Source: Candidatus Kapaibacterium sp.
GTDB taxonomy: Bacteria > Bacteroidota > Ignavibacteria > Kapaibacteriales > UBA2268
NCBI GenBank assembly: GCA_026390695.1
Contig: JAPLFL010000129.1
Coordinates: forward strand, 1-64,000
Reading direction: 5' to 3'
DNA: 64,000 nt
The notes under the pieces are model-generated. The model made no database searches and was not told the origin of the DNA. It worked only from the letters and a program-made list of their open reading frames with translations. Below are positions 4,821-42,691 of the stretch, piece by piece. The translations under genes and the position numbers were made by a program. Numbering within the stretch: position 1 is the stretch's first letter; each line of letters begins with the position of its first letter.

Positions 4821-4872
4821 TACTTTGGAAATTCCCCCTGCCTTAATGTTGCCAGAATCAGGATTTTCTTCT

Positions 4873-4983
4873 GTCATTCCTGCGAATGCAGGAATCCCCT
4901 GATTCACAATGGATGGGGATTCCTGCATTCGCAGGAATGACAGATTCACAATGGATGGGGATTCCTGCATTCGCAGGAATGAC
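4873..4983. repeat. 27-bp palindromic repeat, three copies
   Basis: Copy 1 (4873-4899) reads GTCATTCCTGCGAATGCAGG plus AATCCCC; copies 2 (4916-4942) and 3 (4957-4983) are its reverse complement. Copies 2 and 3 lie in a 41-bp direct duplication that includes the spacer AGATTCACAATGGATG. Each unit contains the internal palindrome TCCTGC-GAAT-GCAGGA. The same unit occurs at 10.7 kb and 42.6 kb. It resembles REP/MITE-like intergenic repeats; no transposase is present in the window. Confidence 0.85.
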
Positions 4984-5069
4984 AGATTCAAACTTGTAAT
5001 CAATATTGAGCCAGCCTCATCTCATCTTCCATCATTTTGCATTCTACATTTTGCATTCTACATCCATCC

Positions 5070-6290
5070 CTACGTAGGATTCACCGGAACATCAATATAA
5101 ATCGCTGCACTCGCTGCGCTTTCAAGATAATCATTCACAGCAATTATATAATAATAAAAACGCTTATTCTCGACCGATACCTCTGAATAAGAATTTGTTG
5201 CAGCCAATTCCAAATATGAATAAGTACCCGGAGCCGCACTCACATTCACTATCGAGCGATAAACCTTATATCTCGTTGCGCCTGCAACTGCATCCCAACC
5301 CACATCAATATTTTGCGGAAATCCCGCTCCTGATAAGCCAATCGTAAGATTTGACGGCGCAGAAAGTGAATCATAATAAGTAAATAATAATTCGGTCGCA
5401 AAATCTCCAAAACCTGCCGAATTACGCGCCCTGACCCGGTAATGCTTTGAAACGCCGGAACTCGGTATATAATTAAATATTGTCGCAGCATCTGCATAAA
5501 TCTCAGCCCAATCAGTGCCGTTATCGCTGGCTTCAATCTGATAACTCGTGGCATTCGTAACCGTATCCCACGAAAAATCATTTGAAACAAAATTATATGC
5601 AAAATTCGTAGGGGCAGTTAGAGCGCCACCGCCACCACCCGCGCCGTAAATCACATAATCATTATATTTAGCCGAATTAGTATTAGCATAAATCCGCTTG
5701 CCAACGTCGCAATACATCGCAATCTTGGCATACAGCGTATTTCCTTCATTAATCCGCTCGACTTTCTTAGTATCACGCAGATTCATTTCGTCATTCTGCT
5801 CATTACGCGCATCTTCATAAGCATCAATTGCATCGGCAAAATCACTCAATAAACCGGAAGTCAAACCAAATGGAGTTAAATCAGACAGAAAGCCAGTCAT
5901 AGTATGATGAACGCTGCGAGCCGTAACAAGCATCTTATCTTCAGAGAAATTATTCAAACCGGCAATGCCAAGTTTGCGATATTGACCCGAATTCTCGCCC
6001 CATTTCATTGCGACACGAACAGCCATAGTGCGGATAATCTCCTTTACTATCTCAAGTTTTGCATTTTTATCCTGAGTAGCAATCATAACATCCCCGATAA
6101 GTGAATCATCCGTCGGGAAAACTTCAAAAGAATCAACAAGTGAGTGTAAATTGGTAACGGCGAGAGCAGTAATACCAAAATTAGCGAGATCGGAAAGATC
6201 GCGAGTCATAGTACTGGTTAAATTAGAACCAAACATACAAAGTTCTGAATCAAGCAAACTATAATTTCTTCTTTCAATTGAGGTAGGCAT
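5070..6290 (-). CDS. Duplicated helical domain plus two Fn3 domains
   Basis: A 406-residue protein of unknown function. I see an internal duplication: residues ~27-111 (TMTRDLSDLANFGITAL... ending LGIAG) align with ~130-216 (TMTGFLSDLTPFGLTSG... ending YVIYG), sharing TMT-LSDL-FG near the start and a Tyr/Asn-rich end; both are predicted mostly helical. A GAGGGGG linker (~216-222) follows, then two fibronectin type III domains (~224-306 and ~311-402) with the usual Trp, Tyr-x-Val and NxAG/Asn-rich loops. No signal peptide, lipobox, T9SS tail or membrane segment is evident, which is odd for an Fn3 protein. The heptad-repeat ORF lies 30 bp upstream on the same strand. Confidence 0.75.
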   Translation of the reverse strand: MPTSIERRNYSLLDSELCMFGSNLTSTMTRDLSDLANFGITALAVTNLHSLVDSFEVFPTDDSLIGDVMIATQDKNAKLEIVKEIIRTMAVRVAMKWGENSGQYRKLGIAGLNNFSEDKMLVTARSVHHTMTGFLSDLTPFGLTSGLLSDFADAIDAYEDARNEQNDEMNLRDTKKVERINEGNTLYAKIAMYCDVGKRIYANTNSAKYNDYVIYGAGGGGGALTAPTNFAYNFVSNDFSWDTVTNATSYQIEASDNGTDWAEIYADAATIFNYIPSSGVSKHYRVRARNSAGFGDFATELLFTYYDSLSAPSNLTIGLSGAGFPQNIDVGWDAVAGATRYKVYRSIVNVSAAPGTYSYLELAATNSYSEVSVENKRFYYYIIAVNDYLESAASAAIYIDVPVNPT

Positions 6291-6320
6291 AATATAATTC
6301 CTTAAAAAATTTATAATAGA

Positions 6321-6800
6321 CTAACAATAAATATTCACATAACAACAACTTGATAAATTATATATACAAAATATTCTATCATATAGAAATAAATAATAAA
6401 CATAATGTTCTGATAGAGATTTCTTGTATTCTGTTGACACTATCTCTCTTTCCGATGAGGCTATCTCTCTTTCTGATGAGGCTATCTCTCTTTCTGATGA
6501 AGCTATCTCTCTTTCCGATGAGGCTATCTCTCTTTCTGATGAAGGTATCTCTCTTTCCGATGAAGCTATCTCTCTTTCCGATGAGGCTATCTCTCTTTCT
6601 GATGAAGCAAATTTTCTAATCAACGGTATTATTTTTCCCCATGATGAATTTATTTCAAGATATGATAGCAAATATTTAGGCATGATTAACAATAATGTTA
6701 TATCAGTATAAATAAATTCAAATAAAAATAAAGAATTATCTTCCGTGAAATGATTGATTTTTTCGCGTTTTATAGATTGACTTATTTTTTTTGTTATCAT
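6321..6800 (-). CDS. Putative heptad-repeat (ASSEREI) protein
   Basis: A 159-residue open frame, doubtful as a gene. It begins with ATG preceded by AGAGGATTTT, a reasonable ribosome-binding site, has a hydrophobic patch (~25-45), then eight exact seven-residue repeats (ASSEREI, one PSSEREI) encoded by the 21-bp tandem repeat, and a Tyr/Cys-rich tail. Because the unit is a multiple of three, other frames across it are open too, so openness alone is weak evidence. The heptad period with Ile at one position could form a coiled coil. It sits 30 bp upstream of the Fn3 gene, which would allow one transcript. Confidence 0.35.
   Translation of the reverse strand: MITKKISQSIKREKINHFTEDNSLFLFEFIYTDITLLLIMPKYLLSYLEINSSWGKIIPLIRKFASSEREIASSEREIASSEREIPSSEREIASSEREIASSEREIASSEREIASSEREIVSTEYKKSLSEHYVYYLFLYDRIFCIYNLSSCCYVNIYC
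6440..6607. repeat. 21-bp tandem repeat, eight units
   Basis: Eight contiguous 21-bp units of the form STATCTCTCTTTCYGATGAR(G) with no indels. Units differ only at a few positions: C or T in the middle (TTCCGATG versus TTCTGATG), GAGG versus GAAG at the end, and G instead of C as first base in unit 6. The variants are interspersed, suggesting slippage or unequal exchange. On the minus strand each unit encodes ASSEREI; the single substituted first base gives the PSSEREI unit. Confidence 0.95.
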
Positions 6801-7336
6801 AAAATCCTCTAATGAGAAATTATCAAATCAAAATATTGTCAAATTTTCTAAAAACAAAGCAATATTTATAATAAATTCATCATATACATTGCTTGGGTAC
6901 AAACATAATAAAAAAAATAGAATCATGCAAGTTTTTTTTTACCTTTTCTAAATATTTTTTTTATTTCCCTATATGGGCAATTCAAGAATTGCTCCATTTA
7001 TCAAAAAATTCTTAATGGGCAATTCAAGAATTGATCCGTTTATCAGAAAATTCTTAATGGGCAATTCAAGAATTGCTCCGTTTATCAAAAAATTCTTAAT
7101 GGGCAATTCAAGAATTGCTCCGTTTATCAAAAAATTCTTAATGGGCAATTCAAGAATTGCCCCTACAAAGGATCTTTCATTTTACAGTTTTAATTCTGCT
7201 TTTTTTAAAAATAAATTTGCTTAATAATAAAAAACATGTTAATTTTGTAAGTATTTCTTTTAAATATTTGTTGGGTTCGGAATATTTGATGGAAATAAAA
7301 GAAATTATTTACTTGAACCCACAAAATGAACTTGAT
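6801..7336. other. Gene-free stretch with a tandem array
   Basis: Between the heptad ORF and the ChaN-M1 gene. 6801-6972 is very AT-rich with long homopolymer runs and no recognisable site. 6973-7165 is the 42-bp tandem array. 7166-7336 is AT-rich leader sequence. The open frame through the array continues in frame into the ChaN-M1 gene, but its repeats (MGNSRIAPFIKKFL) are a by-product of the array and the signal peptide sets the true start at 7337. Confidence 0.7.
6973..7165. repeat. 42-bp tandem array with palindromic cores, five cores
   Basis: ATGGGCAATTCAAGAATTGC begins at 6973, 7015, 7057, 7099 and 7141, exactly 42 bp apart, separated by a conserved spacer (TCCGTTTATCAAAAAATTCT and close variants). 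Each unit carries the inverted repeat GGCAATTC-AA-GAATTG(C/A)(C/T); only the last copy has the complete GGGCAATTC/GAATTGCCC arms followed by CCTAC, like the dispersed single copy at 4801. The array lies 170 bp upstream of the ChaN-M1 start. Confidence 0.93.
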
Positions 7337-42490: not shown

Positions 42491-42691
42491 ATTCCCGCAT
42501 TCGAGACTGTGTGAAAACTTCAATTTCTGTCATTCCTGCGAATGAGACTGTGTGAAAACTACCTTTTCTTGTCATTCCTGCGAATGCAGGAATCCCCTGA
42601 TTGGCACTGGAAGGAGATTCCCGCATTCGCGGGAATGACATTCCAGTGGAATTTCATAGTTTTCACACAGTCTCATTCGCGGGAATGACAG
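42491..42691. repeat. Compound nested palindromic element, well preserved
   Basis: Outer arms: 42527-42561 and 42657-42691 are 35-bp inverted repeats with one mismatch. Each arm consists of half of a palindrome (CTGTCATTCCTGCGAAT) plus GAGACTGTGTGAAAACT. Inside lies an inverted pair of the 27-bp unit (42571-42594 and 42616-42639). A further GAGACTGTGTGAAAACT at 42503-42519, after ATTCCCGCATTC, repeats the left junction. Same order as at 10606-10793. MITE-like in form; no transposase present. Confidence 0.85.

Follow-up and report, generated by a model that had tools for sequence, protein, structure and literature searches.

A multicopy gene superfamily of the Bacteroidota associated with upstream tandem arrays of 21-bp period

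We analysed a 64,000-nt stretch of DNA from Candidatus Kapaibacterium sp. (assembly GCA_026390695.1, contig JAPLFL010000129.1, positions 1 to 64,000; hereafter the window). The ORF marked at 5070-6290 in a sequence-only reading of this DNA exists and encodes a protein of 406 aa, but it lies on the minus strand. The gene and its upstream region comprise the following features, all on the minus strand, with the basis for each in parentheses.

5070..6290, minus strand: gene for a 406-aa protein with a duplicated helical domain, a poly-Gly linker and two Fn3 domains (ORF, translation, AlphaFold2 model, paralogues)
5967..6263, minus strand: helical repeat 1, residues ~10-108, with SGQYRKLGI at its end (hhalign, model helices 14-97)
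5658..5954, minus strand: helical repeat 2, residues ~113-211, with the long helix 145-201 (hhalign, model)
5646..5669, minus strand: KYNDYVIY signature, residues 208-215, at the close of the helical domain (alignments)
5625..5645, minus strand: flexible, Gly-rich linker GAGGGGG, residues 216-222 (sole part modelled with low confidence)
5376..5618, minus strand: Fn3 domain 1, residues ~225-305 (model strands, PDB FNIII matches)
5082..5369, minus strand: Fn3 domain 2, residues ~308-403 (model strands, PDB FNIII matches, phmmer)
6291..6428, minus strand: leader from the array to the ATG, where a core promoter is expected by analogy with flavobacterial members (TAnnTTTG enrichment in flavobacteria)
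6429..6608, minus strand: 21-bp tandem array preceding the gene, ~8 units that read TCATCRGAAAGAGAGATAGCY on the gene strand (TRF, conservation across copies and species)
6321..6800, minus strand: 'heptad-repeat ORF', an open frame that runs through the array by chance and is not taken for a gene (closed frames, codon-position variation)

The proposal that the helical part consists of two similar halves with a period of 103 residues was borne out. Comparison of residues 1-112 with residues 113-216 using hhalign, each as a 52-sequence profile, gave 97% probability of homology (E 6e-11, 98 columns), and a true tandem duplication spans residues 10-211. In the full-length AlphaFold2 model (mean pLDDT 95.1), the helices of both halves are offset by exactly 103 residues, with helices 14-30, 32-38 and 42-56 in half 1 and 117-133, 135-141 and 145-201 in half 2; the long helix 61-97 of half 1 is the counterpart of the second part of helix 145-201. 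The poly-Gly linker followed by two Fn3 domains was likewise recovered: residues 217-220 form the sole stretch with pLDDT < 50, and a Foldseek search of the full-length model against the PDB matched FNIII tandems with the Fn3 beta-sandwich fold (best E 1.9e-9). By sequence, phmmer aligned residues 311-401 with the Fn3-like structure 3mpc (E 0.0022), and Pfam fn3 models gave no match to the Fn3 region of the window protein. Reading the translation by eye, we saw neither a signal peptide or lipobox nor a T9SS-type tail at the C-terminus, as had been noted earlier. The C-terminal modules share the Fn3 fold with other bacterial Fn3 proteins; however, in those proteins the domains usually sit on secreted enzymes, whereas here they are optional add-ons to a helical domain without a visible signal peptide.

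The helical unit, which the earlier reading did not recognise, belongs to no curated family, and the window protein had no Pfam match above cut-off. Because Fn3 matches dominated the Foldseek search with the full-length model, the helical domain was also folded alone (216 residues), yielding an all-helical model (pLDDT 94) with no fold match in the PDB at E < 0.1. The sole high-probability match was LemA (PDB 2etd; probability 1.00, TM 0.61 on the target, 131 columns), but with E = 0.38 and covering part of the domain, and the window protein is devoid of a membrane anchor. Pfam and the PDB fold search revealed no DNA-binding fold for the helical domain, and its model had no PDB match of the ToxN-like endoribonuclease fold. 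PADLOC defence models did not match the window protein and gave single weak matches to other members, whereas comparisons with PHROGs produced solely Fn3-type tail or decoration matches plus scattered single weak ones.

Among named families, the closest is NCBIfam NF052641 ('PQLLE family protein'), whose function is unnamed and with which the window protein scores 20.5 bits, far below the curated cut-off of 80. The alignment is weak but colinear (residues 34-187 against 28-185 of 211, E 3e-4), which suggests that the two may be sister families. This model matches eight of 21 members (best E 7e-6), and none of the genomes of the window's relatives contains a PQLLE match above cut-off. No paper in an open-access library, outside which most subscription journals lie, mentions the family. 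The helical domain is without a home in Pfam, NCBIfam, PADLOC or the PDB, and no family or system tested fits it.

The locus had been regarded as the most accessory-like spot in the window, but the gene is not a local peculiarity. The genome (4.63 Mb, 129 contigs) contains ~33 long paralogues, 32-75% identical, plus several fragments, and some copies are truncated or carry internal deletions. They fall into length classes of ~406 aa with two Fn3 domains, ~316 aa with one, and ~230 aa with the helical domain only. Homologues were found in Flavobacterium, Epilithonimonas, Chryseobacterium, Kaistella, Chitinophagaceae, Sunxiuqinia and many Bacteroidota MAGs. The related genomes G006, G012 and G031 contain several copies, and of 296 genomes sampled across the phylum, 20 were positive for the family. 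What stays constant is the helical domain, and the Fn3 domains are optional: most flavobacterial members have none and end soon after the helical domain with a Pro-rich tail, and other members carry CarboxypepD_reg-type or other beta domains in their place. Residue Y212, within KYNDYVIY, is invariant in 73 sequences (three alignments), and the product is acidic, with a pI of ~4.9. Starting from weak matches, we also reached a very distant sister family (loci L192-L215, L150, L151, L153 and L163) of ~230-300 aa, ~10% identical, multi-copy in some genomes and without a Pfam family, whose loci also show upstream 21-bp arrays. Release from the cell by contractile injection or lysis, raised earlier as speculation, gained no support: the neighbourhoods of homologues contained no conserved protein neighbour, whether of an injection system, a phage or any other kind, and there was no homologue in the phages, plasmids and viral contigs searched.

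The same survey, suggested as a way to find a conserved partner, returned no protein; the partner is the 21-bp DNA array. TRF detected arrays with a period of 21 bp or a multiple of it (21k) within 600 bp upstream of 33/34 copies in the window's genome and of 36/40 copies in relatives. Such arrays preceded only 4-5% of control ORFs of at least 150 aa, 9/247 in a 400-kb sample of the window's genome and 12/222 in the relatives' flanks (Fisher p 1e-33 and 2e-29, respectively). The period is 21k in 97/104 and 85/101 near-gene arrays. Tandem repeats cover 51% of the first 250 bp upstream of the copies in the window's genome, falling to a few percent beyond 500 bp, and the flanks of relatives (~370 kb) contain a single period-21 array of at least 60 bp outside the 600 bp upstream of the gene. 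Arrays typically comprise 6-10 units and mostly end 80-240 bp before the ATG. They are also present upstream of 18 of the 29 phylum-survey loci, remote homologues included, and of 14 of the 23 sister-family loci. Among PQLLE loci, TRF found a 21-bp array upstream of L112, which scores above cut-off, but no array was seen at the best-scoring locus, L108. Both L112 and L109 are PQLLE-family loci in a GC-rich genome; at L109 the 7-residue period was apparent by reading only, and TRF made no array call.

The period of these arrays is fixed, and the sequence of the unit is private, differing in every paralogue. Orthologues more than 70% identical share 16.7 of 21 unit positions, but by 60-70% protein identity the similarity of units has dropped almost to background, indicating that co-variation between protein and unit is weak. 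Units degenerate at the array edges and diverge fast, as in slippage or unequal exchange. A universal unit motif was rejected because the unit information (5.43) is barely above that of permutations (5.18, sd 0.10), a slight excess that we put down to related arrays. Intrinsic curvature was likewise discarded, with no signal from one roll table and a weak one from the other (z 0.31, se 0.15). In the arrays of L073, L081 and L093, the two halves are inverted copies of one unit, able to form long hairpins.

To place the array relative to transcription signals, we used TAnnTTTG, the Bacteroidetes -7 promoter element. In flavobacteria, this element lies between the array and the ATG in 13 of 25 loci (1.7 expected from shuffled sequences) and in none of the 25 within the 150 bp upstream of the array. 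The signal is weaker in the window's genome (9/34 versus 3.8), and no exact TAnnTTTG was found in the leader of the window copy. Just before the array, 6/35 relatives carry an intrinsic terminator (0 in shuffles). Between array and gene, such a terminator was found in 0/33 and 0/35 loci of the two sets. The order in Epilithonimonas and Chryseobacterium orthologues is terminator, array, promoter and gene. Terminators before the array, and none between array and gene, indicate that in those relatives the array is upstream of, and not within, the transcript of the gene. Judged by these signals, the flavobacterial array is located upstream of the core promoter, as a predicted upstream control region outside the gene's transcript.

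Many arrays of the window's genome start with a recognisable motif. The sequence CGTTCTTTGA occurs 49 times in this genome, as compared with 14 for the reversed control, and one occurrence, at C119:59058, is 106 bp upstream of a 16S gene (16S starts at C119:59173), a location where a boxA is expected. The motif at array starts comprises the same ten bases as this rRNA-leader boxA, and is a putative antitermination site like those of rRNA leaders and Nus-regulated genes. In gamma-proteobacteria, boxA has the consensus GYTCTTTAANA (PMC5725501). Many copies of CGTTCTTTGA lie at the 5' start of 21-bp arrays, of family genes as well as of other genes, and the exact sequence GTTCTTTGA is found within 200 bp before 8/34 main arrays (0.03 expected; 0 on the opposite strand). 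A boxA with a 21-bp array, and no family gene, occurs at L166:10656-11054, L169:227-550, L180, L182, L164 and L165, with a GT2 glycosyltransferase (L166) and a small membrane protein (L169) behind boxA-headed arrays, and AsnRS (on the other strand) and a PP2C-type response regulator beside others. Three blocks (L059, L096 and L169) start to match one another precisely at CGTTCTTTGA and run on through array and leader into different ORFs. The boxA-like motif is found in this lineage and few relatives, being absent from most relatives' arrays; flavobacterial arrays show no CGTTCTTTGA-type motif, and the rRNA leaders of those bacteria carry other boxA forms. The boxA at the array start suggests that some arrays in the window's lineage are probably transcribed. 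A hairpin, ACTCCTTCGGAGT, lies ~20 nt upstream of several boxA copies (L164, L165 and L167), recalling the boxB-boxA order of rRNA leaders.

The interpretation that we favour, tentatively and at somewhat less than even confidence, is that every copy of the gene, encoding a cytoplasmic scaffold protein whose C-terminal modules are exchangeable, is under the control of a helically phased cis-regulatory array. Gene and array would behave as one unit. The protein would be a soluble cytoplasmic scaffold, with a constant, tandem-duplicated helical platform ending in KYNDYVIY and an exchangeable C-terminal module, which may be none, a Pro-rich tail, one or two Fn3 domains or other beta-sandwiches. 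The array would be a cis-regulatory element upstream of the core promoter. Since 21 bp corresponds to two turns of B-DNA, each unit offers the same helix face, and a DNA-binding factor could assemble cooperatively on the array and so set the expression of that copy; we know of no factor that binds these arrays. Unit sequences would drift and be quickly re-homogenised, so that each paralogue ends up with an array of its own but an unchanged period. The lack of a shared unit motif, together with little or no curvature, means that sequence-specific binding would need its own specificity for each copy, and an acidic product is probably not itself the array binder. We count against this interpretation the boxA-headed arrays and the 21-bp arrays without a gene, both in the window's genome.

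In a rival explanation, the gene product or its oligomer would bind its own array, for autoregulation or locus anchoring, much as plasmid initiators and ParR bind iterons upstream of their own genes; the private units would then be a private address for each paralogue. In its favour, array and gene are not parted even in distant relatives, every copy has a unit of its own and the helical domain is tandem-duplicated; plasmid-initiator iterons, the parC of ParMRC and the arrays described here all consist of direct repeats that lie upstream of a gene in phase with the DNA helix. However, there is no replication or partition gene here and the copies are chromosomal and number in the dozens. The acidic helical domain (pI ~4.9) contains no known DNA-binding domain or fold, and protein-unit co-variation is weak, with units hardly more similar than background at 60-70% protein identity. 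We consider self-binding unlikely. Slightly more doubtful is that, by analogy with type III toxin-antitoxin systems, the array gives rise to a non-coding repeat RNA partnering the protein, and that boxA guards its transcript from early termination. The heading of many arrays of this genome by the 16S-upstream motif, and the excess of GTTCTTTGA before the main arrays, speak for a repeat RNA, and ToxIN, TenpIN and CptIN also have a short-repeat array directly upstream of one gene, with units that vary between systems. Against it, most relatives' arrays have no boxA-like motif and the flavobacterial promoter is on the gene side of the array. A rho-independent terminator between array and gene is a defining feature of type III systems (PMC5086642), but it is missing from all 68 loci, and no ToxN-like fold or toxin was found, so that, despite the upstream array, these loci depart from the type III definition in two features.

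The array-leader block could also be a mobile or recombining module, spreading with or without the gene, which would be a passenger or helper. The blocks of L059, L096 and L169, matching from CGTTCTTTGA on with different downstream ORFs, the solo arrays of the window's genome and the common truncated gene copies are consistent with mobility. Nevertheless, such arrays are almost never found away from the gene in relatives, and comparison of flanks showed that the blocks occur in few copies, with no terminal repeats or conserved ends noticed and no transposase or other shared neighbour; a mobile element with conserved ends was discarded, and mobility in the wider sense is kept as an improbable rival. 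Neutral minisatellites persisting upstream of fast-duplicating genes would account for the fast unit divergence and the degenerate array edges, as in slippage or unequal exchange, but they explain neither the fixed 21-bp period nor the placement upstream of one superfamily across a phylum, and we strongly disfavour them as very improbable. Finally, the heptad-repeat ORF and tandem array noted earlier beside the gene are both present, but the ORF is a by-product of the 21-bp array. If the array and the gene formed an operon in which the array encoded a heptad-repeat (coiled-coil) protein, the 159-aa open frame in the window would be expected, and open plus-strand frames per array indeed number 1.29 as compared with 1.00 in column-permuted arrays (sd 0.08), so that stops are somewhat rarer. 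However, in 11/70 arrays every plus-strand frame is closed, and third codon positions show no excess of variation; on these grounds we rejected coding, to which we assign next to no probability. The mild stop deficit is possibly a dinucleotide effect, and arrays are non-coding as a rule.

At a more general level than the cis-regulatory interpretation, we put at about even the chance that these loci represent an undescribed phylum-wide module, in which every gene of a superfamily is paired with a non-coding array of its own, of fixed 21-bp period and free sequence, that would work through protein-bound phased DNA or repeat RNA, with dozens of copies per genome and exchangeable Ig-like domains inside the cell. 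A gene superfamily tied to an array with conserved period, and not sequence, across a phylum is unusual, and selection seems to act on the spacing of two helical turns and not on the bases. Within the open-access literature, the pairing of gene and array matches no described system, and a search for 21-bp arrays in Bacteroidetes returned no relevant paper. The families are numerous, without a Pfam entry, and present in cultivable Flavobacterium, Epilithonimonas, Chryseobacterium and Kaistella.

Other repeats were seen in the same genome. The density of solo arrays was taken from the 400-kb sample plus the window. Solo 21-bp arrays occur at L126:3647-4079 and L132:16042-16271, between convergent genes, and one of the two has inverted halves. 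A second array in the window, at 6973-7160 (42 bp × 4.5, ATGGGCAATTCAAGAATTGC...), is located 370 bp upstream of the 21-bp array; the unit of this second array is resembled by a hairpin, GGGCAATTCGTGAATTGCCC, in a terminator-like site at 4820-4801. Matches of Rfam microRNA models to the hairpin repeat at 4865-4980 were all below gathering scores and were dismissed as spurious, with no other Rfam match in the region. Lastly, a 41-42 bp tandem or palindromic repeat around GTCATTCCTGCGAATGCAGGAATCCCC is scattered over the genome, being found in the window at 4880-4990 and 42503-42586, and also in L120 and L121; it is a source of spurious Rfam microRNA matches.
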